This document shows positions 2,452 through 28,489 of a stretch of DNA of 59,574 bases, piece after piece (the first letter of the stretch is position 1; each line of letters opens with the position of its first letter). The translations under genes were made by a program, and so were the position numbers. Source of the DNA: Bacillus sp. ISL-41 (GTDB taxonomy: Bacteria > Bacillota > Bacilli > Bacillales > Cytobacillaceae); the NCBI RefSeq assembly GCF_018613235.1, contig NZ_JAGGQP010000020.1, forward strand, positions 1 to 59,574, written 5' to 3'. The notes beneath the pieces were generated by a model. The model saw only the letters and a list, made by a program, of their open reading frames with translations, had not been told where the DNA came from and did no database searches.

Positions 2452-2508
2452 GGTAAACTCCTTATTCAAAACATATGGAAGTATCATACACTTTTTTACA
2501 GGGTTTTT

Positions 2509-3609: not shown

Positions 3610-3824
3610 TCGTGTTGGTATCCCTCCGGAAAGTAAGCCTTTAAGCTAATTGTAACTGCTAGTACAGGAACTGTGAAAAGAAATTTTTCAGCGCGAAGAC
3701 TGTAATTCATTTCTTTGATTGAATCGATATTTTTTTAAAAATGGGCTAATGCACAAACGGGTCAAGTACCCATATCATACCGTAAAGGGAAAGCAATTCA
3801 AAAACAAACGAGGAGTGGTTTTTA

Positions 3825-4028: not shown

Positions 4029-4052
4029 AAACAATTTAATTCTCGAAAAGTC

Positions 4053-4088
4053 TAAGAGGTTGCCTGGTGACAGGCAGCCTCTTATTTT
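4053..4088 (+). terminator. Rho-independent terminator after yjcZ-like gene
   Basis: AAGAGG-TTGCCTG and CAGGCA-GCCTCTT form a strong stem around a GTGA loop, followed by ATTTTG. Confidence 0.85.
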
Positions 4089-4217
4089 GATTCGATAAAA
4101 CACGAACAATTAATTGTTTGTTATGAAATATAGTTCGCTATTTAAGTTGACGACATCGCTGTATTTTGTTATATTTACCAAGTGTTAAGCAAAAAACAGA
4201 TTGGCGGGGGATGCTGT

Positions 4218-5684: not shown

Positions 5685-5748
5685 AGATGCATACACACTT
5701 CCACTTCTTTGATAAAATAAACCTAAATACAGAAGAGGCGGGGAAAGT

Positions 5749-9690: not shown

Positions 9691-9704
9691 AAGGGGCTGA
9701 TATC

Positions 9705-10973: not shown

Positions 10974-10996
10974 AGAAAAAAGGGGGAATCGAACAA

Positions 10997-12325: not shown

Positions 12326-12337
12326 GAGGGGGAAACA

Positions 12338-13759
12338 ATGAGACAGAATTTATGGATTAATGGCGAAGGTGTTAAAAGTGGTAAATATCGTCCGCTTTTT
12401 AATCCTTTTAATGGAGAAAAAATTGCTGATGTAGCAGAGGCAAGCAAAGAAGAGGTGATTAAAGCGATTGATTCAGCTGCCGGGGCAGCAGTGACGATGG
12501 CAGAGATGGATGCACATAAGCGTTCCGACATCCTGCGGAGAGTGGCTGAATTAATCCAGGAGGACAGGGAGGAATGTGCCCGCCTGATCGCGGAGGAATC
12601 CTCCAAACCATTGAAGGCTGCTCGTGGTGAAGTCGACCGTACCATCATGACCTATAGATTTGCATCAGAAGAAGCAAGGAGGCTTCACGGTGAAACAATC
12701 CCGATGGACGCGGCTCCTGGAGGCGAGGGGAGAGTCGCCTATACGGTAAGAGAGCCGCTGGGAGTAATAGCTGCAATCACTCCTTTCAACTTCCCGATGA
12801 ACCTTGTTGCCCATAAAGTAGGGCCGGCAATCGCTGCCGGAAATACGATAGTCCTTAAGCCAGCCAGCCAGACCCCATTATCAGCCTATAAAATTGCTTC
12901 CTATTTCTATGAAGCAGGACTCCCTGCGGGTGCGCTGAATGTAGTGACTGGCAGCGGGAAAAGTGTTGGTGATGTGCTGATTGCCGATGACCGGGTGAAG
13001 ATGGTCACATTTACGGGAAGTCCTGAAGTTGGGAAGCATATACGCGAAAATGCCGGGTTGAAACGAGTAACTCTGGAACTAGGTTCTAATTCGGCCTTGA
13101 TTGTTGATGAAGGAACTGATCTAAAAAAGGTAATGCCCAGAATCGTTACGGGAGCCTTTTCTAATCAGGGGCAGGTTTGCATCTCTATCCAGAGGATTTT
13201 CGTACACGAAGCGATCGCTGCTGAATTTGTTTCTTTGTTTATTGAAGAAGCTGGTAAACTGAAGGTGGGAGATCCACTGGATGAGCAAACAGATTTAGCT
13301 GCCATGATCAGCGGAAATGATGTGACCAGGGCAAAAGCCTGGATCCAGGGCGCGGTGGAAAACGGAGCGGAGCTGGTATATGGCGGAGATAGTGAAAGAC
13401 AAATATTGAAGCCAACTGTGCTGCTCAATGCGCAGCTCACTGATAAAATTTCCTGTGAGGAAGTGTTCGCACCGGTTGTTCATATCAACACTTTTGATGA
13501 TTTCGCTGATGCGATAGCCAAGGCTAATGATTCAAAGTACGGGTTGCAGGCAGGAGTCTATACGAATGATCTTCAAAAAGCGATGCAAGCTGCAAAAAAC
13601 CTCCATGTCGGCGGTGTGATGATCAATGAAATACCAACTTTCCGGGTAGACCATATGCCATATGGCGGCGTCAAAATGAGTGGAACCGGCAGAGAAGGGA
13701 TTAAATACGCTTTAGAAGAAATGACCGAACTGAAACTTGTTTCAATCAAACTGGATTGA
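12338..13759 (+). CDS. Succinate-semialdehyde dehydrogenase-like ALDH
   Basis: 473-residue NAD(P)-dependent aldehyde dehydrogenase. The substrate-binding TPFNFPMNLVAHK, FTGSPEVGK, the general-base Glu in TLELGSN and the catalytic Cys in GQVCISIQR are all in order. Directly behind a GabT-like gene it should oxidise succinate semialdehyde to succinate and so end the lysine route in the TCA cycle; specificity is inferred. An AGGAGGGGG ribosome site lies at the gabT stop. A hairpin terminator follows. Confidence 0.86.
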   Translation: MRQNLWINGEGVKSGKYRPLFNPFNGEKIADVAEASKEEVIKAIDSAAGAAVTMAEMDAHKRSDILRRVAELIQEDREECARLIAEESSKPLKAARGEVDRTIMTYRFASEEARRLHGETIPMDAAPGGEGRVAYTVREPLGVIAAITPFNFPMNLVAHKVGPAIAAGNTIVLKPASQTPLSAYKIASYFYEAGLPAGALNVVTGSGKSVGDVLIADDRVKMVTFTGSPEVGKHIRENAGLKRVTLELGSNSALIVDEGTDLKKVMPRIVTGAFSNQGQVCISIQRIFVHEAIAAEFVSLFIEEAGKLKVGDPLDEQTDLAAMISGNDVTRAKAWIQGAVENGAELVYGGDSERQILKPTVLLNAQLTDKISCEEVFAPVVHINTFDDFADAIAKANDSKYGLQAGVYTNDLQKAMQAAKNLHVGGVMINEIPTFRVDHMPYGGVKMSGTGREGIKYALEEMTELKLVSIKLD

Positions 13760-13763
13760 CCGT

Positions 13764-13788
13764 AAGCCTGGCCCAAAGCCAGGCTTTT
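13764..13788 (+). terminator. Terminator between ALDH and ablB
   Basis: AAGCCTGGC and GCCAGGCTT pair perfectly around CCAAA. The T-run is only four bases, so some readthrough into ablB is likely. Confidence 0.65.
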
Positions 13789-13829
13789 CATACGATTTAA
13801 TTCTTATATCAAGAATTGGGGGAATGAAC

Positions 13830-14696
13830 ATGCATTTAGGCAAAAAAATGACCTTATCAGAAAAAAACTATAATCTAACTGTTTATCTTGATCCACAGAA
13901 TAAGCGGGTCAGGGTGGAAAATTATTTGGGCAGCTTGCCACATATTTTGGATCAAGCTGAAAAGCTTGTGGAGAGCGAAAAAGCAGACAAATTAATCATC
14001 AAGGCAAGGAAGGAACATTTTACACAGCTGATCGAACGAGGTTTCAGTTTTGAAGCAAGTATTGATGGATTCTTCCTAGGCTCTGACTGTGTGTTCTTTT
14101 CGAAGTTTTTCAGCGACGAAAGAAGGACTTCGCCGCATTGGCTTCAAGAGGATGGAATCATTAAAAGTGTTTACCATCTGGCAGAGCCAGCACAGAACAT
14201 TACGCCTCCAAAGGATTACGTTATGAAAAAGATGGACGAAAGAGATGCAGAAGGCTTGTCTGAATTATACAAAGCAGTTTTCCAAATTTATCCCACACCG
14301 TTAAATAATCCAGAGTATATCGTCAAAACGATGAAAGAAGGAACTATTTATTACGGATTTGTCCATGATGGTCAGATTGTAAGCGCGGCATCAGCAGAAG
14401 TGGACTCTTTTTATAAAAATGCAGAGATGACTGATTGTGCAACATTAAAAGAGCACAGGAAGCACGGGTTAATGAAGGTGCTGCTGGCCCGCCTTGAGGA
14501 GGAACTGATCGAAAATGGCATATATTGTTCTTACTCCATAGCCAGGGCTTTATCGTTCGGCATGAACGCAGCCTTGCATCAACTGGGTTATGTATACCGG
14601 GGCAGACTGGTGAATAATGTGTTTATCTATGATAAAATTGAAAACATGAACGTTTGGGTAAAAGATTTGGCAAAATCGCCAAAATTTGGGCAGTGA
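13830..14696 (+). CDS. ablB: Beta-lysine N-acetyltransferase (AblB/YodP)
   Basis: 288 residues; a GNAT-fold C-terminal half (about residues 130-270) follows an N-terminal domain characteristic of putative beta-lysine N-acetyltransferases. EHRKHGLMKVLLARLEEEL marks the acetyl-CoA pyrophosphate loop. It should acetylate the N6 amine of beta-lysine made by KamA; N6-acetyl-beta-lysine is an osmolyte in some organisms but here probably the first intermediate of degradation. I chose the ATG at 13830, seven bases after GGGGG; an in-frame ATG at 13824 lies too close to that site. Confidence 0.85.
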   Translation: MHLGKKMTLSEKNYNLTVYLDPQNKRVRVENYLGSLPHILDQAEKLVESEKADKLIIKARKEHFTQLIERGFSFEASIDGFFLGSDCVFFSKFFSDERRTSPHWLQEDGIIKSVYHLAEPAQNITPPKDYVMKKMDERDAEGLSELYKAVFQIYPTPLNNPEYIVKTMKEGTIYYGFVHDGQIVSAASAEVDSFYKNAEMTDCATLKEHRKHGLMKVLLARLEEELIENGIYCSYSIARALSFGMNAALHQLGYVYRGRLVNNVFIYDKIENMNVWVKDLAKSPKFGQ

Positions 14697-14748
14697 AAAG
14701 ACAGTTTTTCGGCACTCTGTCATATACTCAATATGGGAGTGTGATGAG

Positions 14749-16137
14749 ATGAATTCAGTATCCAATGTGACCGAAGAAATCTTAAGCGCAATATTGAAGT
14801 GCATTGACGAAGCAATCCATGTAGTGAATACAGACGGTATTACCATTTTCTATAATGAAGTAGCTGCCAGGCACGATGGATTGGACATCAATGAGGTGAT
14901 TGGAAAGCCGCTCCTTGCTGTGTTCCCTTCACTGAACAACCAGTCCAGCACTCTATTGAAAGTAATTGAAACGAAGAAACCAATCTATAATGAAACTCAG
15001 TCCTTCGTCAATTTGCACGGGCGGAAAATTGACACTGTCAACTCGACACTGCCAATCTTTGTGCAGGGAGACTTGATTGGCGCAGTTGAAATTGCAAAGG
15101 ATTATACTCAAATCAAACAGCTTTCTGAACGCCTGGTCGAGATTCAAAAGAGTCAAAAGCATCGTGGCGGGAAAACCGTTAAACAGCAAGCTGGCTATAC
15201 GTTCAGAGACTTGATTACAAGCAATAAGCATTTTAAGACGATTAAAAAGAAGGCAGAGAAACTTGCAAAATCTGATTCTCCGATTCTAGTGTATGGGGAA
15301 AGCGGGACCGGCAAGGAGCTTTTCGTCCAATCCATCCATAACGCCTCCAGTCGGGCAGTTGGACCTTTCATTGCGCAAAACTGTGCGGCAATTCCAGAAA
15401 ACCTGCTTGAAAGCATCTTGTTTGGCACATCAAAGGGAAGCTATACTGGAGCAGTGGACAGGCCAGGTTTATTCGAGTTGGCTAATGGTGGAACACTTTT
15501 TCTTGATGAGCTTAATTCGATGCCCTTCGACCTGCAGGCCAAGCTTCTTCGTGTCCTGGAGGATGGTGCTGTCAGAAGAATCGGAAGTACCCATGTCATT
15601 TCTGTCAACGTCAGGGTAATTTCTGCGATGAACGTTTACCCTGCCCAGGCAATGGAAGCAAACCAGCTGCGGACGGATCTGTTTTACCGTTTGAATGTAC
15701 TGACATTCGAACTGATGCCCCTAAGGCAAAGGAAAGAAGACATCCTATATTTATCTGATATCTTCATTAACCAATATAATAAGCAGCTGAGGAAGCATGT
15801 CTCCGGACTTGATGATCATGTAAAAACCATTTTCTATAAACACCCGTGGCCTGGCAATGTCAGAGAACTTAAGCATACTATTGAATACATGATGAATGTA
15901 TGTGAAGGCAGTATGCTGACCGGGCAGGACCTGCCAATGATGATGAAAAACATCCAGACACATCAGACTGAAGAAACACGTACTTCATTTGTTTTGAGAG
16001 ACCATCTTAAAGAGCTTGAAATCCAATTAATCAATGATGCGCTGGATGCTTCTGGCGGCAATGTCCAGAAAGCAGCCGTCCTCCTCGACATTCCAAGACA
16101 AACGCTACAATATAAAATAAAAAAACTAAATCTATGA
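14749..16137 (+). CDS. Sigma-54 dependent activator of the kam locus
   Basis: 462 residues. A PAS-like sensor (about 10-120), an AAA+ domain with Walker [11 protein letters not shown] and Walker [10 protein letters not shown], then a Fis-type helix-turn-helix at the C-terminus ([24 protein letters not shown]). The sigma-54 contact loop reads GSYTGA rather than GAFTGA, an unusual but tolerated variant. It should hydrolyse ATP to open the sigma-54 promoter just downstream of kamA. The ligand is unknown; lysine or beta-lysine would make sense. ATG 14749 has GGGAGTG upstream. Similar regulators next to kamA in the B. cereus group have been called KamR, from memory. Confidence 0.88.
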
Positions 16138-16147
16138 CATTCTAATC

Positions 16148-16182
16148 TGCCGAATTTTCAGCAGGTTATTTTCTTTTTTTTG
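16148..16182 (+). terminator. Terminator after the activator gene
   Basis: CTGC-(C)-GAA and TTC-(A)-GCAG form an interrupted stem, followed shortly by T8. An equivalent hairpin with the same T-run-then-GCG ending exists at the same distance from the second kamA (26619-26645). Confidence 0.6.
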
Positions 16183-16258
16183 CGATTATATTTCGCTGAT
16201 TATTCTCAAACCCCTGCATGAGACTGGATTGACTGAATTCTGAATAATCCGTCACTTT

Positions 16259-16274
16259 TGGCACGGAACTTGCA
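16259..16274 (+). promoter_or_regulatory. Sigma-54 (-24/-12) promoter of kamA
   Basis: TGGCAC at 16259-16264, five bases, then TTGCA at 16270-16274: an essentially perfect match to the sigma-54 consensus. It lies 38 bases before the kamA start and directly after the sigma-54 activator gene. Confidence 0.92.
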
Positions 16275-16311
16275 TTATAAAAAGCTATAAAAATAGCTAG
16301 GGGGAATTGGG

Positions 16312-17424
16312 ATGAAACAGACTTTATATAAGCCTTCAAGACACTGGAAGGATATAGAGCTATGGAAGGATGTTACTGAGGAACAATGGAATGACTGGCT
16401 ATGGCAGCTTACAAATACAATCAGGACACTGGATGATTTAAAGAAGGTTATTAATCTTACACCCGAAGAAGAAGAGGGTGTCAGGATTTCGACGAAAACA
16501 ATCCCGCTGAATATAACACCTTACTACGCTTCATTAATGAATCCAGACGACCCGCGCTGTCCGATCAGGATGCAGTCAGTGCCTATCTCCAAGGAAATTC
16601 ACAAAACAAAATATGATCTTGAAGATCCACTTCATGAAGATGAAGATTCACCTGTACCTGGTTTGACGCACAGATATCCTGACAGGGTGCTTTTCCTCGT
16701 GACCAATCAATGCTCGATGTATTGCCGCTATTGCACAAGGAGAAGATTTTCGGGACAAATCGGCATGGGGGTTGCGAAGAAACAGCTTGATGCCGCAATC
16801 AACTACATCCGGAATACTCCAGAAGTCCGGGATGTATTGATATCTGGCGGAGATGGTCTTCTGATCAATGATAATATTCTTGAATATATCTTAAAGAACC
16901 TGAGAGAAATCGACCATGTTGAAATCATCAGGATTGGAACTCGGGCACCAGTTGTTTTCCCGCAGCGAATTACAGAGAATCTTTGTTCAATCCTCAAAAA
17001 ATACCACCCAATCTGGCTGAATACACATTTCAATACATCAATCGAAATTACTGAAGACTCAAAGCGAGCCTGTGAAATGCTTGCCAACGCTGGGGTCCCT
17101 GTTGGCAACCAATCCGTCATACTTGCAGGAATCAATGACAGTGTCCCGATTATGAAAAAGCTCATGCATGACCTCGTTAAAATCCGTGTCCGCCCTTATT
17201 ATATTTACCAATGTGACCTGTCTGAAGGCATCGGCCATTTCCGTGCCCCGGTCACAAAGGGTCTTGAAATTATTGAAGGCTTAAGGGGACATACTTCAGG
17301 TTATGCAGTCCCGACAGTATTTTTTATAGGAAGTATAAAAACAATTTCACCTGCTTATACTTTTTTAATAAAAAGGCATAAGAGGTTTTTTTTATGGAAA
17401 AAACAAGCTTTCACAAACATGTAG
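16312..17424 (+). pseudogene. kamA: 5' part of host kamA, cut by the mobile element
   Basis: Lysine 2,3-aminomutase, the radical-SAM/PLP enzyme that isomerises L-lysine to L-beta-lysine. Residues 1-335 match the family, including the 4Fe-4S motif C134-x3-C138-x2-C141. After GYAVPT the reading frame continues into unrelated sequence (VFFIGSIKTIS...) for 35 residues. The lost part contains the DxPGGGGK motif with the PLP lysine, so this product cannot be an active mutase. Codon use and base composition are like the upstream host cluster. It is still driven by an intact sigma-54 promoter, and its frame overlaps the start of the recombinase gene. Confidence 0.92.
17311..17316. other. Left attachment junction (attL) in kamA
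   Basis: Here kamA homology ends: CCGAC is the last host sequence, followed by element sequence beginning AGTATTTT. The right junction (27777-27782) reads CCAACC. CC and AC are the dinucleotides shared at equivalent codon positions 334-335; either could be the serine-recombinase crossover. Confidence 0.7.
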
Positions 17425-18962
17425 CAATCTATTTAAGAATCAGCCAGGAGAAAAGAAATGAAAACGAAGAAACATTAAAGAACCATAGGGAGATTCTGGT
17501 GGAACATGCCAAGGCTATTAATTGTACATATGATATTTATGGTGAAGTAATTAGTGGTGGTAAATCTAACATTGAAGACAGGATAGAACTTCAGAGGCTA
17601 TTTAATAATATTGAAAATTATGATGCGATCTTATGTATTGAGCTGTCACGCTTATCAAGAAATGGACTCATTTCTCAAACGGTTAAACAATATTGCATAG
17701 ATTTTGATAAACCCATTATTACTCCATTTTATGAATACGATCTTGCAAATAATGAAAATGACCGATTAATGTTTGATTTAGGAAGTTTAATCGCTAGCCA
17801 TGAACATGGTGTTATTGGCAAGCGTAGTAAAATAAACAAAATTCAGATGTCCAAAGCAGGCTTACATGTTAGTGGAAATGTCCCATTTGGGTATGTAAGA
17901 AATAATGAAACCAAGAAGCTGGAGATAAATGATAAGGAAGCTAAAATTGTTAGGTATATATTTGACTTACATTCAAGTGGTTTAGGCAGTTTTAAAATAA
18001 GGGAAATTTTAAATCAAGAAGGGTATAAAACAAAAAAGAACAATCACTTTGAATTACCTACCATAAAAAGAATAATAAAAAATCCAGTGTATAAAGGAAC
18101 CATTGTATTTAATGATAGGAAAAGGAAAAAGAAAGATGGTAAGTTTGTGTATGAAATAGTAGAAACCATTGTAGTGGATAAAGCTCACCCTTGGATTATA
18201 TCACCTGAAGATTGGGAAAGAGCTAATCAGGATTGTCTTGAAAGAGCAAAGAATGCAAGACAACATAGAGAAAAACCCGCAATCAAAACAGGATATACTA
18301 TGTTAAAAGATCTGATTTTTTGTGGCGTTTGTGGCAGGAAAATGACAATTAGGAAAGATAATAAAAATACAAGTACTTATACTATAAAACGCTGTGAATA
18401 TTTACTAATTGGTGGAGAAAAGTGCCAAAACTGCGGAATTAAATTAGAATTCGTAGAAAATGAAGTGTACGATGAACTACAAGAATATAAAAATAAATTG
18501 ACGGAAAGCCTCAGGCTGATTCAGCTAAACGATGAGACCAAATTAAAAAATCAATTAACTGAAAGGCTTGTAAAGGTTGAAAAGAAGTTAAAGGAGGTTT
18601 TAAGCCAACAGAAGCGACTAATAGACTTTGCTGTTGAGGGAATCTTTACAACTGAACAGATAAGAGATAAGAAGCAAGAGTTATTAACTCTACAGCAGAA
18701 CTTAGAGAAAGAGAAAAAGGATTCATTAAATGAAATTAATAACCCATCATTTGAAAATATAACAAAAAATATACAAGGCGTTATTCATTCGATAGAAAAC
18801 CTAAAGAATATGAATACTGTAGAAGTAAATCAAACTCTTAAAACATTTATAAAAAAAATATTTTATACAAGAGTTATTCCAGAAGAATTATTGGTGAAAT
18901 CCACGCTGAATAAACAGAGAAGATACTACCCGTTTCAACTTGAATTTGAATACAAAAAATAG
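17394..18962 (+). CDS. Large serine recombinase (element integrase)
   Basis: 522 residues. Resolvase-type catalytic domain about 8-150 with Arg15 and nucleophile Ser17 in YLRIS, plus IELSRLSRNG. A recombinase domain follows (about 165-290), then a zinc ribbon with CGVCGRK and CEYLLIGGEKCQNCG, then a coiled coil rich in K/E/L/Q (about 375-450) as in phiC31-like integrases. It should integrate and excise the element at kamA. The ATG is preceded by AAGAGG. The gene starts 30 bases before the end of the truncated kamA frame and reads in the same direction, so the host kamA promoter may transcribe it. Confidence 0.93.
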   Translation: MEKTSFHKHVAIYLRISQEKRNENEETLKNHREILVEHAKAINCTYDIYGEVISGGKSNIEDRIELQRLFNNIENYDAILCIELSRLSRNGLISQTVKQYCIDFDKPIITPFYEYDLANNENDRLMFDLGSLIASHEHGVIGKRSKINKIQMSKAGLHVSGNVPFGYVRNNETKKLEINDKEAKIVRYIFDLHSSGLGSFKIREILNQEGYKTKKNNHFELPTIKRIIKNPVYKGTIVFNDRKRKKKDGKFVYEIVETIVVDKAHPWIISPEDWERANQDCLERAKNARQHREKPAIKTGYTMLKDLIFCGVCGRKMTIRKDNKNTSTYTIKRCEYLLIGGEKCQNCGIKLEFVENEVYDELQEYKNKLTESLRLIQLNDETKLKNQLTERLVKVEKKLKEVLSQQKRLIDFAVEGIFTTEQIRDKKQELLTLQQNLEKEKKDSLNEINNPSFENITKNIQGVIHSIENLKNMNTVEVNQTLKTFIKKIFYTRVIPEELLVKSTLNKQRRYYPFQLEFEYKK

Positions 18963-19004
18963 CTACTTAAAATATTCAAAAATAAGTTAACGATAAATGA
19001 AAAA

Positions 19005-19036
19005 TGTAGGCATCTCGTCTCTTTGAGATACCTACA
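19005..19036 (-). terminator. Terminator of the tyrosine-recombinase operon
   Basis: TGTAGGCATCTC and GAGATACCTACA are 12-base arms with one mismatch; read on the minus strand the hairpin is followed by TTTTT. It lies just past the stop of the third recombinase. Confidence 0.7.
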
Positions 19037-19043
19037 GCCTAGT

Positions 19044-19988
19044 TCACCAAGGTAATTTGATGTTATTGTATATTTCCTCGTTTTCTGGTATGAATAACTC
19101 AAAGTTTCTAATGTAGTTTGGTTCAATATAAGTTCTAGTGGATGATAGAGCAATGTGATTTAACAATTGTTGAATGGTTGTTATTAAAGCACCGGATTCA
19201 AACATCATAGTTCCAAAACTATGTCTCATGGAATGAACCTTAACTTTTGGAAGGTTCGCAAAAGTTAGGTATGAATTTAGTAGTGTATTTACGGAATCGT
19301 ATGATAAGTCGGGAAAAAGTTTATCACTATGTGATAGTTGATTTTCTACGCAATATTTTTGTATTAGCTTACCAACACCGTGTCTTAAAATTATATAGTG
19401 TGATCGCTTGTTTTTTGTTTCTTTTAGAAAGATTAGATCATTGTCGAAATCTATGTTTTCAACAGTGGCGTTCAATATTTCATTTTTTCTAGAGCCAGTT
19501 GATAATAATAGAGTGAAAAGTAGTAAATCTCTTTTTAAATTACTACTATGTTTGATTATACTTCTTAAAAGCCTGATAACTTCATGCCGATTGAGTATTC
19601 TCGGTGGTATCCTCGATGGTTTATAATTTTTTAATTTAAATTCAATTTCCAACATTACGTCATCAAAAGCATAGTTCATAAATAAATATTTAAAGAAACT
19701 TTTAAGTGCAGCGTGACATGTTGAAAGCCAAGAATACCCTTTATCAGTCCTCGAAAATAAGAACTGATCTAATAAAGTAGAATTAATGGGTAGAAACCGT
19801 ACAGTTTTACCGTTTACATCAATCAGTTCAAATATTTGTTCTAAATGCAGCTCACCATATTTTTGTTCGGTTAAGTCGGATAGATATTGACCAAATTGCT
19901 CAAGTTTGTCTTTATAAGCTTTTTTAGTACTATCAGTAAAATCTTTGCATAAAAGAAATTTATCAATTTCCTTAACATATGGTTCCAT
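19044..19988 (-). CDS. Tyrosine recombinase, third of trio
   Basis: 314-residue phage-integrase-family protein. The catalytic set is complete: Arg in STGSRKNEI, HSMRHSF (HxxR), LLNH, and the nucleophile Tyr in STRTYIEP. The N-terminal part (about 1-110) looks like a SAM-like core-binding domain. It is the last gene of a three-gene minus-strand operon, 19 bases after the second recombinase. Three adjacent, different tyrosine recombinases recall RIT (recombinase in trio) elements and, more loosely, Tn554. I see no terminal inverted repeats to mark a separate element. Confidence 0.88.
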   Translation of the reverse strand: MEPYVKEIDKFLLCKDFTDSTKKAYKDKLEQFGQYLSDLTEQKYGELHLEQIFELIDVNGKTVRFLPINSTLLDQFLFSRTDKGYSWLSTCHAALKSFFKYLFMNYAFDDVMLEIEFKLKNYKPSRIPPRILNRHEVIRLLRSIIKHSSNLKRDLLLFTLLLSTGSRKNEILNATVENIDFDNDLIFLKETKNKRSHYIILRHGVGKLIQKYCVENQLSHSDKLFPDLSYDSVNTLLNSYLTFANLPKVKVHSMRHSFGTMMFESGALITTIQQLLNHIALSSTRTYIEPNYIRNFELFIPENEEIYNNIKLPW

Positions 19989-20007
19989 TTCTAACTTATG
20001 ACTCCTT

Positions 20008-21132
20008 TTATAAAATTTCTTTTAGCAGAGCTTCCATAGGGAATGGATAATTTTTCATTACTTGTTCCTTTAAATCAATAGGAAGAAGTTGAGTATAAAT
20101 TGAAGTAGTTGCCGGATTTGTGTGCCCCAGTAACTGAGAAAGGAATTGAATTTCCATTCCGGCTTTTAAGCAATTCACAGCAAATGTATGCCTGAACGAA
20201 TGAGTCGTAAAGTAACTTTCATTAATATTTGCATCTTTAAAAATATTACTTATTTGATATTGAAGAGACCTATTAGAAATCCGCTTCTTTCTGACATTAT
20301 CCTCGTCCCGTGAAAATAAAAAACCATTGCAATTTTCCTTATTAGTTAAGCCAGTATCATCTAAATAGCTAATTAAGTGTTTTTTAGTCTCTGGGTATAA
20401 TGTGATAATCCTTGTTTTGTTACCTTTACCTTTTACAAAGATAATGTCATTATCAAAATGAATATCCTTGATTTTAATGTTAGTTGTTTCACTAATTCTG
20501 CACCCAGTAAGTAACATAAAATATATCATAGAATACCAACGGTAACCGTATGTTCTCCTATAAGCCTGTTTTAATATTGACTTAACCTGTTCATTGTTAA
20601 AATACCTGGGTAGTAATTTAGTTTTATTAAAATCAAATCTAACTGATAGGTCTTTGTCAACATATTCAACAATATATGCATACTTAAATAGCTTTCTAAT
20701 AATTGCAGTATATTTGTTCATTGTATAATCCGATAATTTTTCTTTCTCTTCGTTTTCTGTTTTGTCAACTTCCTTTTCCTCGTTGGTTTGACTATTGGTT
20801 CTTCTCCTTGACTTCAAAGTAGAATAGAATTTTAGAAGCAACACTTCATTGAACTGGTCCAAAGCTAAATTTGGATCAATTTTGTTAACATATTCTTTAA
20901 TTCTATTTATGAAATTAAGGTATGTTACCAGTGTAGTTTTACTTCTTTTTTTATTTTTGACTTGCAACGTTAAATTTTCTATAAAATCATCGGCTACCTT
21001 TAAAAAAGTAACCTTTTCCGAGTTTTTTTGCGTTGTATATGCACTTGTTAGTGACATTAAAGTCTCCATAGTAATCCCTAACTCATTACATACCTGTTCA
21101 TAATCTATATTGGATTGTATCTTTAAGGGCAC
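20008..21132 (-). CDS. Tyrosine recombinase, second of trio
   Basis: 374 residues with catalytic Arg in LTGCRISET, HSFRHTFAVNCL, LLGHTNPATTSIY with His and the nucleophile Tyr. An extra charged stretch (about 118-135, rich in E/K/T) sits between the core-binding and catalytic domains. It starts with GTG, and its AAAGGAGG ribosome site is embedded in the last codons of the upstream recombinase, one base from that gene's stop, so translation is coupled. It probably works with the other two recombinases on asymmetric ends; target unknown. Confidence 0.88.
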   Translation of the reverse strand: MPLKIQSNIDYEQVCNELGITMETLMSLTSAYTTQKNSEKVTFLKVADDFIENLTLQVKNKKRSKTTLVTYLNFINRIKEYVNKIDPNLALDQFNEVLLLKFYSTLKSRRRTNSQTNEEKEVDKTENEEKEKLSDYTMNKYTAIIRKLFKYAYIVEYVDKDLSVRFDFNKTKLLPRYFNNEQVKSILKQAYRRTYGYRWYSMIYFMLLTGCRISETTNIKIKDIHFDNDIIFVKGKGNKTRIITLYPETKKHLISYLDDTGLTNKENCNGFLFSRDEDNVRKKRISNRSLQYQISNIFKDANINESYFTTHSFRHTFAVNCLKAGMEIQFLSQLLGHTNPATTSIYTQLLPIDLKEQVMKNYPFPMEALLKEIL

Positions 21133-21133
21133 G

Positions 21134-22453
21134 TTAACTTTCCTCCTTTAGTACTGTTTCAGGGTTGTATTGAAGAGTATTTCTTTTAAGCCTTTGAATG
21201 CTTTTTTCAAGATAATAGTAAGTTGAATCTAAGCGGGCGTGTCCCAGCGCCATGGATACTTTTTCAAGGTCATTTTTATTTTCTAGTGCATTTGTAGCAA
21301 ATGCATGCCTATAAGTTTTCGCTGTATACTTTACTTCTCCGAATACTTTTTTATTTGCTGCAGCATAAATTTGACCTATTGCATTAACAGTGAGCGGTTC
21401 GTTACTTGTTGATAAAAATAAAGTTTTCCCATTATAATCTAATTTTTCTCTGTATTTTAGATATTTTCTTAGTACTTTCATTACCAGGTTACTTAACTTT
21501 AGCTTTCTCTGACCTGATTTTTTACTTCTGATCACTATAGTTGATTCTGAGGTAGATACATCTTGGAGTTTCATATTAGTGATTTCTATAGGCCTACATC
21601 CAGTATCAAGAATAATTAAAAATACACTTAAATTTCTTTCAGGTAGCCTTGAATAATTTAAAATAGCATCTATTAACTTCATGGTTTCTTTGGTATTAAC
21701 ATACTCATTATTTCGTGTATGCTGAATTTGAAATTTGCCAGGTATAGAATATTTGAAACTTATGAAGTTCAGTCTTCGAATATATTGAAGGAATAATTTT
21801 AAGCACCTTAGTAAATTCAAAGCCCTACTTGTTGAAATTTCATTTAATGAAACTCTTCTCCCTAAGAATTTATGATATGAATCAATATGTTCTTTATCTA
21901 TTTTTTTTACATCTTGATCTTGGAGCAAGTCTGGTGCTGGAAAACTTTTAAATTCTTCGGCTAAAAATTTAAAGAAGTACAAAATATCTTTTCTATAGTT
22001 TTTTAGTTGGCTGTAATTTTGAAAAGATAAATCTTCAAGAAAAGAATTAATAACAGGTGGAACGTTTTTTTTAGCTTTAGTTTTTATTGATTTCTCAATT
22101 AAGGTTGCTTTGAAAATAAAGTTGATCTGTTTGTCTCTAAATAAATGCTTTGATAGTAAATTTATAATGTTTAGATAACCCTGGGCAGTGCTTGCCTTTA
22201 AATTACCCATTTTTATTTTCTTTTCTAAAGTGTTTTTATAAGAATTAAAATGTTCTATGGACAGAAATTTAGTGTTCAATTGGTTGATATCATATTCGGC
22301 TACGAAAGATCTTAAAGTCCTGCTAATGTTTCTTTTATAACCAGGTGAAATATTGCTCCTTTCAAGAAAAGCAATTATGGTTTCAGGTAAACAATCGGGA
22401 TTAGTTTGGACTACGAAATTATTTTCATTTTTAATAACTGTTAGATTACTCAT
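21134..22453 (-). CDS. Tyrosine recombinase, first of trio
   Basis: 439 residues, promoter-proximal gene of the minus-strand trio. Catalytic Arg in DTGCRPIEI; the box usually HxLRH reads KTYRHAFATNAL, so the first His is replaced by Lys; ALGH and the Tyr-rich DSTYYYLEKS supply the His and the nucleophile. Apart from that substitution it looks intact and active. The longer N-terminal region (about 1-200) has two helical segments and may include an arm-binding domain. Confidence 0.86.
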   Translation of the reverse strand: MSNLTVIKNENNFVVQTNPDCLPETIIAFLERSNISPGYKRNISRTLRSFVAEYDINQLNTKFLSIEHFNSYKNTLEKKIKMGNLKASTAQGYLNIINLLSKHLFRDKQINFIFKATLIEKSIKTKAKKNVPPVINSFLEDLSFQNYSQLKNYRKDILYFFKFLAEEFKSFPAPDLLQDQDVKKIDKEHIDSYHKFLGRRVSLNEISTSRALNLLRCLKLFLQYIRRLNFISFKYSIPGKFQIQHTRNNEYVNTKETMKLIDAILNYSRLPERNLSVFLIILDTGCRPIEITNMKLQDVSTSESTIVIRSKKSGQRKLKLSNLVMKVLRKYLKYREKLDYNGKTLFLSTSNEPLTVNAIGQIYAAANKKVFGEVKYTAKTYRHAFATNALENKNDLEKVSMALGHARLDSTYYYLEKSIQRLKRNTLQYNPETVLKEES

Positions 22454-22877
22454 GATTTAAAATCTCCAATATAAATATTTAGAATATTGTGCTAAAATAT
22501 ACTTGCGCAAAGTGCTATTAAATTAACTTTCTGCTCTGTTAATTTTTCCTGGCCAGTCATACTAATTTCCAGTATCACCAATTTAAACACATGTAATTCA
22601 ATTTCGCTTTACTTTGTTAAAGAAAATAAGCGTAGAATTGTACTTCTATGCCATTTATCTTTAATTTAATAAAGTGCTAAAGGGGGCTGAAATAAAGTTT
22701 GTTAACTGGATTTCATTTTAAGCTAATACCGAGGAATCCAATATATAATAAAGATATAGTTATGAAATATTTTAAGTGCATTAACCTAATCATTACTTTT
22801 GAGAAGATTTATCATGTTTTTATGATACTGGAGATTTTGTTTGATAAAAGGACCTATGCTTATTTTGGTGATGAGCT
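22454..22877. other. Divergent intergenic region in the element
   Basis: Noncoding and AT-rich, between the recombinase trio (leftward) and an unknown gene (rightward), so it should hold both promoters. An inverted repeat with arms GC-N-TAGAA and TTCTA-N-GC lies at 22630-22651 and could be an operator. Nothing else can be assigned. Confidence 0.4.
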
Positions 22878-23705
22878 ATGTCCAAAGAGCCGAAAGGGTA
22901 CCAGACTGATCAAGTAAGAGCTGCAAATGAATTTGCGCTGGGGGAAATAACGCTAGAAAAATTTTTAAGGTTTCATCCGATTGGTAGAGGTTATAAGTGG
23001 AAACACATGGTGTTTGTAAGAAGGCAATCGTTTATTTGGCATCAATTAATTGAAAGATTACCTGTGCCTTATAGACTAAAGGCATATCTGGATTCTGAAG
23101 ACTTATCGGTTCCGTATCTAAGAGAAAATATGCAAATTACATCTGGTAATTACATTAATATAAAGAATTATGAATTAATGATAGAAGAGGGCTTGCAGAC
23201 AACCCTCCTGAAGCTTGCTGTAGTCTTAGATATACCCATTAGATATTTGAAAGGTTTTGACACCAGTGAATTGGTAGTTGCAGATTTTGATGAATACGAT
23301 TATTTGATAATGGATAATAAGCAATCGTTTTCAGAAATTGTATCATGGACACTGAAAAGAGATATCTGTCGAATTATTGAGGGTTTTATCGTTGATAATT
23401 CCGAGAAAGAAATTCCTTTTGTCCATAAAAATCATGTATATGTTAGAGTGGATAAAAATGTAAATTTCTTCCGATTTGAAATCTTCCTTGAATCAAGACC
23501 ATATGCATCAGTAGGTCAAATAAAGGAATTATTAAATGCTTTTCAGGGTAGTGTAAAATATGTGTATAAAGAAGAGTCGTTACTAAGAAAGGTACCAAAA
23601 TTAACTTTTATAGGCATTTATAAAAATACCTCACTTGAACTACTCGAGGAATTTGTAAATGACTTAAGTGAAAGTCCTGGAAAAGAAAGAATCTATCCAT
23701 TTTAA
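22878..23705 (+). CDS. Unknown protein, divergent from recombinase trio
   Basis: 275 residues, no family recognised. Charged and aromatic, without signal peptide or membrane helices, so cytosolic. The N-terminus (ANEFALGEITLEKFLRFHP) could be helical and DNA-binding, but I see no clear helix-turn-helix. AT-rich codon use matches the element. The ATG has only a weak ribosome site (GGTGATGAG). A terminator follows closely. The position opposite the recombinase operon would suit a regulator or accessory recombination factor; this is only a guess. Confidence 0.6.
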   Translation: MSKEPKGYQTDQVRAANEFALGEITLEKFLRFHPIGRGYKWKHMVFVRRQSFIWHQLIERLPVPYRLKAYLDSEDLSVPYLRENMQITSGNYINIKNYELMIEEGLQTTLLKLAVVLDIPIRYLKGFDTSELVVADFDEYDYLIMDNKQSFSEIVSWTLKRDICRIIEGFIVDNSEKEIPFVHKNHVYVRVDKNVNFFRFEIFLESRPYASVGQIKELLNAFQGSVKYVYKEESLLRKVPKLTFIGIYKNTSLELLEEFVNDLSESPGKERIYPF

Positions 23706-23722
23706 TACCTAAAATATTTATT

Positions 23723-23759
23723 CCTCTTATTACATCCTAGGAAGTAATAAGAGGTTTTT
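23723..23759 (+). terminator. Terminator after the unknown gene
   Basis: CCTCTTATTAC at 23723-23733 and GTAATAAGAGG at 23744-23754 form a perfect 11-base stem, followed by TTTTT. Confidence 0.85.
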
Positions 23760-23882
23760 CTAATTAAAAGTAATTTAATCAATTAGTTATAAGTTTTAAA
23801 ATATAGACTTATATAGCAAGGAGATTTAAAGTATTTATAATGATTTAATGATACACGTAAACTATTTCAAGGATCTAGAGAA

Positions 23883-23914
23883 CCTCTTATTACTAAAGTA
23901 ATAGGGGGTTTTTT
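23883..23914 (+). promoter_or_regulatory. Second copy of the hairpin, overlapping a ribosome site
   Basis: The same left arm CCTCTTATTAC recurs and pairs with GTAATAGGGGG using G-U pairs, followed by T6. The GGGGG that would serve as ribosome site of the next micro-ORF lies in the right arm. The structure can act either as a terminator or as a hairpin hiding that ribosome site. Confidence 0.5.
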
Positions 23915-23915
23915 G

Positions 23916-24062
23916 ATGCGTAAGTCAAAAGCACAAACATTAGAACAGAAAAAATTAAATGCTCTAAAAGTATTGGAGAAATGGGAACTAAAAGAAAAGG
24001 AACGATTTAAATATAAAGACGAGGAAGAAAAGATAATAAAACCTGAAAAAAAGTCACCATGA
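23916..24062 (+). CDS. Micro-ORF, 48 residues, highly charged
   Basis: Starts MRKSKAQTLEQKKLNALK and continues as a Lys/Glu-rich, probably single-helix peptide. A GGGGG ribosome site lies seven bases before the ATG. Its stop overlaps the start of the next micro-ORF in an ATGA pattern, which argues that both are translated. No family recognised. Confidence 0.5.
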   Translation: MRKSKAQTLEQKKLNALKVLEKWELKEKERFKYKDEEEKIIKPEKKSP

Positions 24063-24208
24063 AAATAAAGATAAAGGCGAATCAAACCTCAAACCATGTC
24101 AGTCCTAACCAGCCACCTTGCACCAGAATATGTAGAAATAATCCGAATTTAGAACTAATGGCAAAAGGGTTTCTGGAATTATACTTAAGATCATTGAAAA
24201 ATTCATAA
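24059..24208 (+). CDS. Micro-ORF, 49 residues, coupled to the previous one
   Basis: Starts MKIKIKANQTSNHVSPNQ and ends GFLELYLRSLKNS. Two cysteines are four residues apart (PPCTRICRN). It overlaps the upstream micro-ORF by four bases and is followed within 30 bases by a terminator hairpin, so the pair looks like a small two-gene transcript. Function unknown. Confidence 0.45.
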   Translation: MKIKIKANQTSNHVSPNQPPCTRICRNNPNLELMAKGFLELYLRSLKNS

Positions 24209-24237
24209 ATTACTGAAGCTCGCCAATCAATGAAAAT

Positions 24238-24267
24238 AAGTAGAGGAAAGATCTTCTCTACTTTTTG
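24238..24267 (+). terminator. Terminator after the micro-ORF pair
   Basis: AAGTAGAG and CTCTACTT pair around a ten-base loop and run into TTTTT. Confidence 0.75.
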
Positions 24268-24412
24268 GGGGGCTTTTTTAAAATTAAATAACGATTCGCT
24301 ATGGGACAGTGAAATAACCGTTCGTAACTTCAGCTTTTTACTTTTCTAATTAAACAGTCGGTTTTAAAAGTAGCACTAATAAAATAATTAAGTTGAAAAC
24401 TAATTATTTGAT

Positions 24413-24503
24413 CTTGTTTGTTCTTTTTCCTTTACTTATTAGGAGCATAGGTTACATTTATAGCCATTGATAGTTAGCTCCATAAATAAAAGGAACAAAC
24501 AAG
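24413..24503. repeat. Long imperfect inverted repeat upstream of the nuclease gene
   Basis: The outer arms CTTGTTTGTTC and GAACAAACAAG are perfect over 11 bases; further in, GGAGC pairs with GCTCC. The arms enclose about 70 bases. The stretch 24209-24645 otherwise holds no gene. It could be a structured leader, an operator region for the nuclease, or an end of a nested element. Confidence 0.5.
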
Positions 24504-24645
24504 AATTTTTGGCATATGAACTTTAAGTAAAAGATTGGATACTTAATGTTTTTTTGCTTAATAAGTAACGTTTTTATAATTATTATTTTATAAATATATG
24601 GTTAAACTTTTAGTAACTTGGAAAATGACGGAGGTTATCTAATCA

Positions 24646-26166
24646 GTGCTTCGTACTCACATATCCAATCGTTATCTAAAAGAAGATAAAGTTATAACAG
24701 CTAAGACCCATTGGGAATTAGAAGAAAAAGTTAAAAATCAAAAGCAGCGGTGGAAAGATAAAGAAAAGAAAGTTAAGAACCAAAAAAGGATTGAAAAGTT
24801 AAAGTGCTCTGCGATTACAGATACCGAAAGATCTCTAGAGCTAATTGAAGAATATCGGAATCTTCTTCAGTTCTCATTAAATAGAAAGCATTCTATTAAT
24901 TGGGACAAGCTTTTTAGTAAGGAAACTTACGAAGTTGAGGAACCTAACTTAGAAAAATTCATTGCGTTGGTAAATGTTCCAAAAGAGGATAAATTTTTTG
25001 AGCTTTTTCTCCCATCTTTAAAGAAGAAGAGGCTTGAAAAGATGAATGAGGCAGAAAAGGAATATAATCATGCCTACACTGAATATCAAAGAGAAAAAAA
25101 TGAATTTATTAACGAACAAAGGGAGATTAACGAATCAGTAAAACAATTTAAACTTGCATATGAGGATTCAATTACTCCATTTGTGGAAAAATACTTTGGT
25201 ACAGTAATTGATTCTTCTGTTTATCCAGAGGGAATAAATAAAAATTTTGAGATCCAATATCTATCTGAAGCAAAAGCTTTGGTTATTGATTTTGATTTAC
25301 CCCTACCAGGAAATGTTCCAGACATCATTGAATATAAATTTATACAAGCTCGTAAAGAAATTGTTACTAAAAAGATGAAGAAAAAAGAATTTGAAGAATA
25401 CTACGAGGATATTATTTACCAATTAACACTTCGAAATATTTACGAGTGTTATAGTGCTGATTATGGTAATACAACTGAACTTATTGTATTTAATGGATGG
25501 ATACATGGGGTTGATTCTTCAACTGGTCAAGATTTTCACTCTTGTATTGTAAGCCTACAAGCAATGAAGGATGAGTTTTTAGCATTAAATCTAGAAAAGG
25601 TAATACCGAAAGATTGTTTTCGAAGTCTAAAGGGATTAAACGCGGGTGCTTTATACCAGTTAGCACCAGTAAGGCCAATAATTGAACTTAACCGTGAAGA
25701 TCAGCGATTTGTAGAATCAAAAAAAATCTTAGCTGAGATTAATTCTATTCCCAACTTAGCAGCTATGCCGTGGGAAGATTTTGAGCACTTAGTAAGAGAA
25801 CTATTTGAAAAATATTTCTCCGCAGTTGGTGCTGAGGTAAAAGTAACGAAAGCGACCCGTGATGGAGGTATTGACGCCGTTGCTTTTGACCCTGACCCTA
25901 TTCGTGGCGGAAAATTTATCATTCAAGCAAAACGTTACAACCAAGTGGTTCCTATATCAGCAGTTCGCGAGTTGAATGGGATAATGGCAGATGAAGGTGC
26001 AGTAAAAGGAATATTAGTTACTACAAGTTATTATGGAAACGATTCATGGGAATTTGCTAAAGGAAAGCCGCTGACTCTTTTGGATGGATCTAATTTGATT
26101 CAGATGTTTATGGAATTTGGCTACAATGTCAAAATTGAATTAAAGAAAAATGAAAATGCAAATTAA
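24646..26166 (+). CDS. Mrr-like restriction endonuclease with coiled-coil front
   Basis: 506 residues. Residues 1-180 are Lys/Glu-rich and predicted coiled coil. Residues about 365-500 form an Mrr_cat-type nuclease domain: MPWEDFEHLVRELF, then RDGGIDAVAF with the metal Asp, then FIIQAKRY with the Q-x-K of the PD-(D/E)XK fold, and GILVTTSYY. It has no methyltransferase partner, so it is probably a solo or modification-dependent nuclease serving as defence cargo. It starts with GTG behind GGAGG. Codon use is AT-rich like the rest of the element. The middle region (180-360) matches no family that I recognise. Confidence 0.8.
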   Translation: MLRTHISNRYLKEDKVITAKTHWELEEKVKNQKQRWKDKEKKVKNQKRIEKLKCSAITDTERSLELIEEYRNLLQFSLNRKHSINWDKLFSKETYEVEEPNLEKFIALVNVPKEDKFFELFLPSLKKKRLEKMNEAEKEYNHAYTEYQREKNEFINEQREINESVKQFKLAYEDSITPFVEKYFGTVIDSSVYPEGINKNFEIQYLSEAKALVIDFDLPLPGNVPDIIEYKFIQARKEIVTKKMKKKEFEEYYEDIIYQLTLRNIYECYSADYGNTTELIVFNGWIHGVDSSTGQDFHSCIVSLQAMKDEFLALNLEKVIPKDCFRSLKGLNAGALYQLAPVRPIIELNREDQRFVESKKILAEINSIPNLAAMPWEDFEHLVRELFEKYFSAVGAEVKVTKATRDGGIDAVAFDPDPIRGGKFIIQAKRYNQVVPISAVRELNGIMADEGAVKGILVTTSYYGNDSWEFAKGKPLTLLDGSNLIQMFMEFGYNVKIELKKNENAN

Positions 26167-26618
26167 TGAATTAACCACCACATGATTAGTCATATAATTT
26201 CAGGAGCAGCAAAAAAGTTTGAGTATGTAATGTAGTTGGAAGGGTATCCCATTCGCCTATTTATCGAATTTAACAGTAAGCAAGATAGGTTTGAGTAATT
26301 TTCTAAACAATTTAGGACAACTAGAATTATCCATTTACAGGGATAATGCCGCTAATGCCAATTTTTGGGCATGGGAATGCCAAGAAATCAGCACTTTGTA
26401 TTGAAAAAATAAGTAATACCAACGAGATTTTAATATTACATCTCGTCCTTATATGGCTTTGTTGGGTTCCATAGCGGTGTCTAACCCCAGTTAGAAAACA
26501 ATTAATATTTAGTCGATTTTAAATTCCCCATTTAATAAATTACTACGATAAATAATTATGAATTAGTTTAAATACTGTGCAAACTGTTCACTAACTAATA
26601 AAAAACATATTGAAATTT
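26167..26618. other. Gene-free stretch of the element
   Basis: No reading frame with a ribosome site is seen. ACGAGAT and ATCTCGT pair near 26424-26448, a possible terminator for the nuclease gene, though without a T-run. Otherwise nothing is recognised. Confidence 0.4.
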
Positions 26619-26645
26619 AACTGCCCGTTAATTGGCAGTTTTTTT
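26619..26645 (+). terminator. Element copy of the kamR-kamA intergenic terminator
   Basis: AACTGCC and GGCAGTT pair and run into T7 followed by GCG, the same ending and almost the same distance to kamA (about 130 bases) as the host hairpin at 16148-16182. Confidence 0.75.
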
Positions 26646-26721
26646 GCGTTTTCGTAAGCCTATAAGTGTATTCAACGGATAAACCCCCTTGTCACCAACA
26701 TTTAGAATTAACAATTCAAGT

Positions 26722-26737
26722 TGGCACGGAAATTGCA
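26722..26737 (+). promoter_or_regulatory. Sigma-54 promoter of the reconstituted kamA
   Basis: TGGCAC at 26722-26727, five bases, TTGCA at 26733-26737: again a near-perfect sigma-54 site, 40 bases before the kamA start. It duplicates the host promoter at 16259-16274, so the same activator should drive both. Confidence 0.92.
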
Positions 26738-26777
26738 AATTGAATAGTGAGTGAAAATGTATAGAGGAGGGGCAATT

Positions 26778-28205
26778 ATGAAACAAACATTATATAAACC
26801 CAAAAGACATTGGAAGGAAATTGATCTTTGGAAAGGAGTTACTGAAGAACAGTGGAATAATTGGCTTTGGCAATTAACCAATACAGTACGAACATTGGAT
26901 GATTTGAAAAAAGTTATTAATTTGACACCTGAAGAGGAGGAAGGTGTTCGAATCTCAACAAAAACAATTCCACTTAATATAACTCCCTACTATGCCTCGC
27001 TAATGAATCCTGATGATCCAAATTGTCCAATTCGCAAACAGTCTGTGCCTATATCTAGTGAGACTTATAAAACAAAATATGATTTAGAAGATCCACTCTA
27101 CGAAGATGAAGATTCCCCAGCACCGGGACTAACACATCGATATCCAGATCGCGTTTTATTTCTAGTAACGAATCAATGTTCAATGTACTGTAGATATTGT
27201 ACGAGAAGAAGATTTTCAGGGCAAATTGGAATGGGAGTACCCAAAAAGCAATTAGATACAGCAATTGATTATATTAGAAATACTGAAGAGGTAAGGGATG
27301 TTTTAATTTCTGGTGGAGATGGATTATTAATAAACGACCAAATTTTAGAGTATATTCTAAAAAAACTTCGTGAGATTGAACATGTGGAAATTATTCGAAT
27401 AGGTACCCGTGCACCAGTAGTATTTCCACAGCGAATTACAGAAAATTTATGTTCAATCTTAAAAAAGTACCACCCAATTTGGTTGAACACTCACTTTAAC
27501 ACGTCAATAGAAATTACAGAGGATTCTAAAAGAGCATGCGAGATGTTGGCGAATGCAGGTGTTCCTATTGGCAATCAGTCTGTTATTCTAGCTGGAATAA
27601 ATGATAGTGTTCCAATTATGAAGAAACTAATGCATGACCTAGTAAAAATAAGGGTACGCCCCTACTATATTTATCAGTGCGATTTATCTGAAGGAATTAG
27701 CCACTTCCGTGCCCCAGTTTCAAAAGGGCTTGAGATTATTGAAGGATTACGCGGCCATACCTCAGGATATGCTGTTCCAACCTTTGTTGTTGATAGTCCA
27801 GGTGGCGGAGGAAAGATTTCTCTACAACCTAATTACCTGATTTCACAAAGTGCAGACAAAGTAGTGTTACGTAACTTTGAAGGTGTCATCACATCTTATC
27901 CAGAGCCTCAAAATTATGTATCAGGAACTGCAGAAGATTATTTCAAGACTATTTATCCTGAATATGAAAAGTATAAATCGAATGTTGGTATATCCGCTGT
28001 GATGAATGATAAGAAATTCAATCTCGTCCCAGAAGATCTTCAGCGCCTAGATAGAAGACAAAAATATCAGGAAGATCCAGATCATTCTTCTTTAAAGGAT
28101 AAGCGGGAAAAACGAGATGAATTAAAAGAAAAGAAATTTAAAGCTCAACAACAAACTTCAGCAAACAAAATTGGCCTAGAAAAAGAACCAGCGGGGAATG
28201 ATTGA
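26778..28205 (+). CDS. kamA: Lysine 2,3-aminomutase, complete (chimeric) copy
   Basis: 475 residues, the usual length. C134-x3-C138-x2-C141 binds the radical-SAM cluster, and DSPGGGGK (residues 339-346) supplies the PLP lysine. It converts L-lysine to L-beta-lysine, first step of the pathway encoded upstream. By homology to the truncated copy and the GAGGAGGGG ribosome site the start is ATG 26778, not the in-frame ATG at 26751. Codons 1-335 belong to the element and the rest most likely to the host, because yokU, a common kamA neighbour, follows. Alternatively the element brought the whole gene, but then a second 3' fragment should exist and none is seen. Confidence 0.93.
27777..27782. other. 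Right attachment junction (attR) in kamA
   Basis: CCAACC at codons 334-335 is where element-borne kamA meets host kamA. The position is inferred from where the left copy diverges. The target codes for the conserved [10 protein letters not shown] stretch next to the PLP-lysine motif. Confidence 0.65.
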
Positions 28206-28207
28206 TC

Positions 28208-28489
28208 ATGAACAAGATTTGTGAGTGGTGTGGAGGGAGAGCAATTTTAGGAGTAAGTAAGGTTTATTGGGAGCTGCCAGATGGGTCAAGGGCAATAGAA
28301 ATCACGGAGACACCGGCTGTGATTTGCAAAGGTTGTACGATGGTATACCAGGAAGAAAAGGTAATTAAGGAGATTGAGGATCAATTGTTTCTAATAGATA
28401 CCAAGATAATTGGAGATACAATCAGTTTTAAGGAGCTTATGGATAAGCCGAGACTATTGAAGAGGAATTATTTTGATTTTTCTTCTTAA
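28208..28489 (+). CDS. yokU: YokU-family zinc-finger protein
   Basis: 93 residues with two CxxC pairs (Cys5/Cys8 and Cys40/Cys43) that probably bind zinc. It matches the YokU family found next to kamA in Bacillus genomes. Function unknown; the context suggests a role linked to KamA. The start at ATG 28208 lies two bases after the kamA stop, with GGGGAA upstream in the kamA end, so it is co-transcribed with kamA. Confidence 0.8.
   Translation: MNKICEWCGGRAILGVSKVYWELPDGSRAIEITETPAVICKGCTMVYQEEKVIKEIEDQLFLIDTKIIGDTISFKELMDKPRLLKRNYFDFSS

Follow-up and report, generated by a model that had tools for sequence, protein, structure and literature searches.

A probable serine-integrase island that splits kamA and carries a complete second kamA gene in Bacillus sp. 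ISL-41

The split kamA gene and the inserted DNA

The window analyzed here is a stretch of 59,574 nucleotides, which represents contig C13 of the draft genome of Bacillus sp. ISL-41 (G000; 4.62 Mb, 57 contigs). Its left part carries host genes on the forward strand (10997-16137) which code for an aminotransferase, a dehydrogenase, AblB (beta-lysine acetyltransferase), and a sigma-54 activator (14686-16137). The same order is found in G016, G003, and G019. A sigma-54 -24/-12 match (16259-16274, forward strand) is followed by the 5' half of the native kamA gene (16312-17316, forward strand), which consists of codons 1-335 and falls into the clade of the host genus in a tree of kamA 5' halves. 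Beyond codon 335, the frame departs from kamA and remains open to position 17424 via non-kamA sequence. The gene is cut at codons 334-335, with the core at 17311-17315. Downstream, on the forward strand, is a gene for a large serine integrase of the phi3T type (17394-18962; 522 aa) with recombinase and resolvase domains. It shows 57.7% identity over 98% of its length to the phi3T integrase, and about 58% to phi3T and its kin. An initial annotation of this DNA had proposed that a serine-recombinase element cuts kamA after codon 335, and this was confirmed by the point at which the frame leaves kamA and by the recombinase gene at 17394.

The attachment sites could be delineated on both sides. 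attL (17311-17340, forward strand) consists of the core CCGAC (17311-17315) and a P' arm (17317-17340) which is identical in G016 and G018, while attR (C3:31716-31744) is on another contig of the same genome, outside the window. The arms form an imperfect inverted repeat (15 of 19 positions match), and attB is placed at a CCNAC core within native kamA, codons 334-335. Behind the attR arm, and preceded by ACTTACAATAAAAAACGC, is a third kamA piece (C3:31731-32126, codons 331-462), followed by yokU and by genes that G019 also has after kamA. In a tree of kamA 3' halves, from which four long-branch rows were excluded, this piece belongs to a 19-row clade of the host genus (support 100/99).

G019 has an empty site. 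Sequences corresponding to positions 9044-17316 of the window and to 31732-32794 of contig C3 meet there in one intact kamA, and the two matches share 14 bases at the core, which is CCTAC in that genome. The native gene therefore consists of the 5' half in the window and the 3' half on contig C3. It follows from this joining and from the piece on C3 that the insert contains a complete extra gene, the kamA at 26778-28205, to which we refer as the spare. Both native halves are devoid of decay, so that a recent insertion or frequent excision is conceivable, which would reduce the need for a spare.

The insert continues past the end of the window and has a length of at least 42 + 31.7 kb. We consider it probable that the insert is an integrative genomic island of at least 74 kb in G000, with its left 42 kb in the window. 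The cargo comprises, in this order, the integrase, three tyrosine recombinases, an unknown protein, an Mrr-type enzyme, the spare kamA with its yokU, a copper/transport block, and Lamassu-like genes, after which attR is reached. The tyrosine recombinase genes are adjacent to each other on the reverse strand (19044-19988, 20008-21132, and 21134-22453). Two forward-strand genes follow, one for a 275-aa protein (22878-23705) without a match in Pfam, PADLOC, or NCBIfam, and one for the Mrr-type (type IV) restriction enzyme (24646-26166). The copper/transport block (28490-59574), which runs on into contig C3, codes for multicopper oxidases and transporters, most of which were named by eye. The Lamassu-like genes LmuC, LmuB, and LmuA are located near attR (C3:25579-30092; L004:1580-6093). 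Upstream of attR, a weak and broken kamA-like stretch was seen (C3:30338-30481; L049:10339-10482; codons 334-381, 44%), which is perhaps the decayed 3' end of an older kamA.

The copper/transport block is collinear with a region of G019, in which matches to 28693-58550 and 58940-59555 of the window are followed by matches to 1240-6554 and 6646-12676 of contig C3. The order of these matches thus indicates that one block extends across the right end of C13 into the left end of C3. The block in G019 is about 0.5 Mb away from the kamA of that genome and is interspersed with G019-only pieces, one of them near 21 kb. Among several relatives, the block is about 96% identical (window 28693-59574; G019:C1:2487647-2518000; G003:C3; G002:C9), and it is found at kamA in some of them and about 0.5 Mb from kamA in others.

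When the ORF lists of the insert, which contains a contig gap, were inspected by eye, neither phage structural and replication genes nor relaxase or mating genes were noticed. No phage record had a kamA match covering more than 80% of the protein, and two scans of IMG/VR returned one relative of the integrase and one kamA located at the edge of a contig. Phage record MT366946.1, a phi3T-SPbeta hybrid, includes a kamA 3' end (130548-130928; codons 333-459), which represents packaged DNA or a host flank. A directionality factor was not recognized among the short right-end ORFs near attR in G000 or G016; weak similarity was seen only among ORFs of phi3T, G033, and Anaerobacillus. By its integrase and attachment site, the unit is best classed as belonging with the phi3T kamA recombination unit, an assignment which concerns the recombination functions and not a phage nature.

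The complete second kamA gene

The spare (26778-28205, forward strand) codes for a protein of 475 aa from its ATG and is located 9.5 kb inward of attL; copies with 97% identity are present in G016 and G018. It is followed on the same strand by its own yokU (28202-28489). Upstream are a hairpin with a subsequent T run, which by eye resembles a terminator (26621-26638, forward strand), and a sigma-54 -24/-12 match, TGGCACGGAAATTGCA (26722-26737, forward strand). The exact motif TGGCACG-N4-TTGCA is found 56 nt upstream of the spare start in G000 and in G016, and a sigma-54 match with at most one mismatch is found at 51-53 nt in all 18 distinct upstream regions from the genus. Outside the promoter and the coding region, the DNA upstream of the spare did not match that of the native copies among the loci compared. 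The sigma-54 activator gene is not duplicated next to the spare, so that control by the host activator (14686-16137) is what we infer.

Codons 1-335 of the spare and of the native gene align without indels and agree in 312 of 335 residues and in 749 of 1005 bases. Among the first 60 bases 14 differ, and 8 of the 12 codons changed are altered silently. This recomputation reproduced the values of the initial annotation, including the predominance of silent changes. Recoding of the spare at the att core as an evasion of the integrase was considered and rejected, as intact relatives have the same wobble changes (4 usable rows out of 14). The protein passes the cutoff for lysine 2,3-aminomutase (score 633.6 vs. 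525.4) and has kept the CxxxCxxC motif (CSMYCRYC, residue 134).

The 3' half of the spare (from 27783) groups with kamA arrays from genus g45 in the 3'-half tree (98/90). In constraint tests, p-AU was 0.044 when this half was held with the native genes of the host genus and 0.175 when held with the G035 type. For the 5' half, none of the placements with G035, g45, or the host genus was rejected (p-AU 0.46, 0.63, and 0.53, respectively), and a chimeric spare is therefore not claimed. Judged from these sequence data, the spare is a foreign gene located in the insert and equipped with a yokU and a sigma-54 promoter match of its own. Its dN/dS of 0.13 overall, and of 0.17 for codons 336-460, points to purifying selection. 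The values for native copies are 0.004-0.024 (5' part) and 0.016-0.040 (3' part), so constraint on the spare is weaker.

Transfer of the island and occurrence of related integrases

Integrase matches (E-values up to 1e-100) were obtained from 3 of the 21 genomes of the genus, namely G000, G016, and G018. These same three genomes carry the native 5' half, the complete spare (97%), and the native 3' half, and the layout of G000 recurs in the closed genomes G016 and G018. To the left of attL, the host DNA of G016 and G018 is 84-91% identical (250-nt windows). At the attL core, identity jumps from about 89% to 100%, remains at or above 97.6% across the aligned windows, and drops to 81-95% past the last attR core. 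This step at both att cores indicates that a unit of 58-63 kb, including the spare, moved as one piece. The comparison of these two closed genomes thus shows, at the sequence level, that a unit bounded by attL and attR, spare included, was passed between species.

The length of the unit is 62.7 kb (G016) and 58.0 kb (G018), and the distance of the spare is 9.3-9.4 kb to attL and 47-52 kb to the right end. The alignment has several breaks, and an unaligned stretch by a foreign kamA 3' copy amounts to 2.8 kb in G016 and 8.8 kb in G018. A 5.4 kb insertion within this headless copy is present in G016 and absent from G018; by eye, it is IS21-like (G016:C1:1478674-1484096; L038). The island of G000 has the left 11 kb in common with G016 and G018 (91-99%) and differs in cargo from the yokU stop onward. 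Between G000 and G016, dS is 0.09 for the spare and 0.69 for the host kamA 5' half, as expected for horizontal spread of the spare.

A genome scan for the integrase returned 15 loci, of which 3 with 21-25% identity were set aside. Among the 12 relatives kept, 10 are directly 3' of a kamA 5' half, 1 is by a 3' half, and 1 is at a contig start. A second complete kamA, disregarding remote paralogues near 33%, was found in 3 of these 12 genomes (G217, G226, and G228) and in none of the other 9. In G217 (Rossellomorea aquimaris), the extra kamA and its yokU are near a recombinase trio and Gabija genes, are on a different contig from the split gene, and have no sigma-54 match. That trio (L089:9102-12376) is 35-42% alike to the tyrosine recombinases of the window (19044-22453). 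In G228 the operon kamA is intact, and the copy which is split is the non-operon one. This second kamA locus outside the abl operon is common to G228 and G058 (L099 and L095) and has been hit by an element in G228. Extra complete copies also occur in genomes with unsplit kamA (G029 and G058, and 9 of 20 chosen genomes of another set).

The assembly of G040 contains a filled site on contig C1 and an empty site on a second contig (G040:C1 and C2; L044 and L045), which are 99.97-100% identical and have a 12-base overlap. We take the two forms as a sign of precise excision of G040's own element. Together with the empty site of G019, they support the earlier expectation that excision would restore a normal gene. 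The kamA element of G040 carries two genes for GH32-like sugar hydrolases, named by eye.

Arrays of kamA 3' ends, alternative explanations, and known systems

An attR arm with a headless kamA 3' end was found at 20 sites in 11 of 193 genomes of the family. The search covered arm and core (27 positions) with at most two mismatches, and the reversed control gave no match among the rows listed. In genus g45, 4 of 5 genomes have an intact operon kamA plus two to five headless 3' ends, which are on the same contig in three genomes and on a separate contig in G070. Most headless ends are followed by yokU. Gaps between array ends (n = 9) are 4.3-6.2 kb in seven cases and 21-24 kb in two, and G071 has one further headless end about 63 kb beyond. 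Among the cargo of the arrays (L119, L120, L115-L118, L122, and L124, from G176 and the genomes of genus g45) are LXG and pre-toxin proteins, a SUKH immunity protein, and a cytochrome. No phi3T-type integrase was found in the array stretches analyzed, the best one in eight such genomes being 31% identical.

The near-identical kamA genes of G071 and G176 differ by 1.3% before nt 1001 and by 10.3% after it, a pattern which would be expected from an exchange of the 3' end at the core. A breakpoint scan revealed a log-likelihood gain above 10 for 15 of 325 kamA pairs. The breaks are within 30 nt of the core (nt 1003-1007) in 8 of them, at nt 815-908 in 4, and at nt 1135-1229 in 3. Since G003 is involved in 8 of the 15, the pairs are not independent.

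A possible, still tentative, model for these arrays is that kamA acts as the invariant head of a cassette array which resembles an integron and is operated by phi3T-type integrases. Every cassette would be headed by kamA 3'-yokU and have an attR arm at its end. A shuttle would enter at attB and exit via an attR nearer than its own, each exit leaving a cassette whose 3' end re-completes kamA; attP x attB and attL x attR, the ordinary reactions, would suffice. Islands which remain integrated would hold a whole promoted kamA-yokU both as insurance and to provide the next landing site. Against this model, only the 8 of 15 strong-break pairs mentioned above break near the core, and those are not independent. 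In G003 and G002, the copper block or parts of it are behind an intact kamA, with no attR found, and in G019 and G009 the block is about 0.5 Mb from kamA, so cargo moves by other routes, too. If the model is true, the kamA 3' arrays would represent a simple serine-integrase route to cassette arrays with genes for interbacterial toxins and other functions.

For the window itself, we regard it as probable that a phi3T-type serine-integrase island splits kamA reversibly and bears an independently promoted kamA which would compensate for the split. The integrase would have placed the island in native kamA at the CCNAC core of codons 334-335, and the host's intact sigma-54 activator would drive the spare. 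KamA, which converts lysine to beta-lysine, would still be produced while the chromosomal gene is broken. Integrase and directionality factor would excise the island and rejoin the native gene, and the 75% DNA identity would limit recombination between the two kamA copies. The island brings a whole kamA under a switch of its own, so that the enzyme is probably retained by the host as long as the island is integrated.

The initial annotation had envisaged a different mechanism, in which an element of 10-12 kb has its end at codon 335 of the second copy, so that a 5' end from its cargo is joined to the 3' end of the host gene. The second copy is indeed complete and in frame. However, the host 3' end is not formed by codon 336 onward of that copy: it is the piece on C3, which groups with the host genus, and the half from 27783 groups with g45. 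The element does not end at the second kamA either, given the attR on C3, the empty site in G019, and the extension of the insert past the window end. No attR arm is found near 27783 at up to four mismatches, and in two closed genomes the spare is 47-52 kb from the right end. The island thus carries a whole second gene rather than a replacement 5' end, and we give next to no credence to the fused arrangement. The empty-site relative proposed for comparison exists in G019, where both native halves are joined in an intact kamA. The second 3' fragment named as a counterindication was found on C3. The complete copy is extra, as this had implied, but it travels with the island and is not a plain chromosomal paralogue. 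The initial annotation was right in that KamA may be produced in the presence of the integrated element, for which a full frame with a promoter match exists, but wrong as to the mechanism.

A joining of unrelated contig parts by misassembly might be suspected because G000 is a 57-contig draft and the right part of the window matches a block elsewhere in G019 and G009. The closed genomes G016 and G018 keep the order native 5' half, spare, yokU, by which an artefact is rejected as regards the left part; the join past position 28490 is found in G000 only. We consider misassembly very improbable. A more serious alternative, although in our view an unlikely one, is that the spare is a passenger from earlier kamA insertions which is not kept for KamA function, the island tolerating kamA loss or using excision like phi3T. 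Two observations count against our preferred explanation and in favor of this one, namely the weaker constraint on the spare than on native copies and the lack of a second complete, closely related kamA in 9 of the 12 integrase genomes. Extra copies without a split also speak against compensation. Furthermore, phi3T returns kamA through excision, and the arrays show kamA pieces piling up at the site. Against a mere passenger, the spare is whole, has a promoter match and yokU, is under purifying selection, and has been kept in three islands, two of them with wholly different cargo.

Among known systems, SXT is likewise an element in a protein gene with host function preserved. It uses a tyrosine integrase and fuses a new 5' end to host prfC, whereas the kamA island has a separate complete gene. 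SXT is reported to insert at the 5' end of prfC (PMC3715440). Fusions which restore a gene by replacing its 3' end are absent from the window, where the native 5' half ends in non-kamA sequence; in this respect the array genomes, unlike the window, do resemble gene-restoring elements. phi3T is described to integrate in kamA at CCTAC and to rejoin kamA by excision upon sporulation. The known kamA prophages of the phi3T/SPbeta group resemble the island in a related integrase (58%), the kamA target, the CCNAC core, and a gene that excision would rejoin, but are mostly phages of 128-136 kb, and a spare kamA is not mentioned in the available parts of these reports (PMC6957869, PMC8270828). The island differs from these in having no phage structural gene noticed and in carrying a whole promoted kamA-yokU.

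The ssrA islands of Dehalococcoides, with a CcrB-like serine recombinase, have likewise been inserted one after another at a single gene, with repeats of its 3' end trailing behind. Many of them lack an integration module, which is a further likeness to the kamA case. The repeat there is 20 bp of an RNA gene, compared to about 0.4 kb of a protein gene plus yokU at the kamA sites, and the islands described here differ by also holding a whole spare gene (PMC3146451). IMEs with serine recombinases and CIME accretion are similar as regards in-gene insertion and tandem leftovers with att sites. The review, in its available sections, has such IMEs disrupting dispensable genes and does not mention a carried copy of the target gene (PMC5704250). 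The partly accessible literature on kamA att sites and on elements carrying a copy of their target gene comprised the phi3T papers, one paper which mentions phi3T at kamA, and papers on other elements, and within it we found no island that carries a whole copy of its target gene under a separate promoter.

Serine-integrase elements in genes have been described as breaking the gene or, in the case of phi3T, as returning it by excision in sporulating cells. If our explanation is true, an island with its own whole, promoted copy of the gene that it breaks would be a third solution, one which bears on how elements persist in metabolic genes and spread between species.
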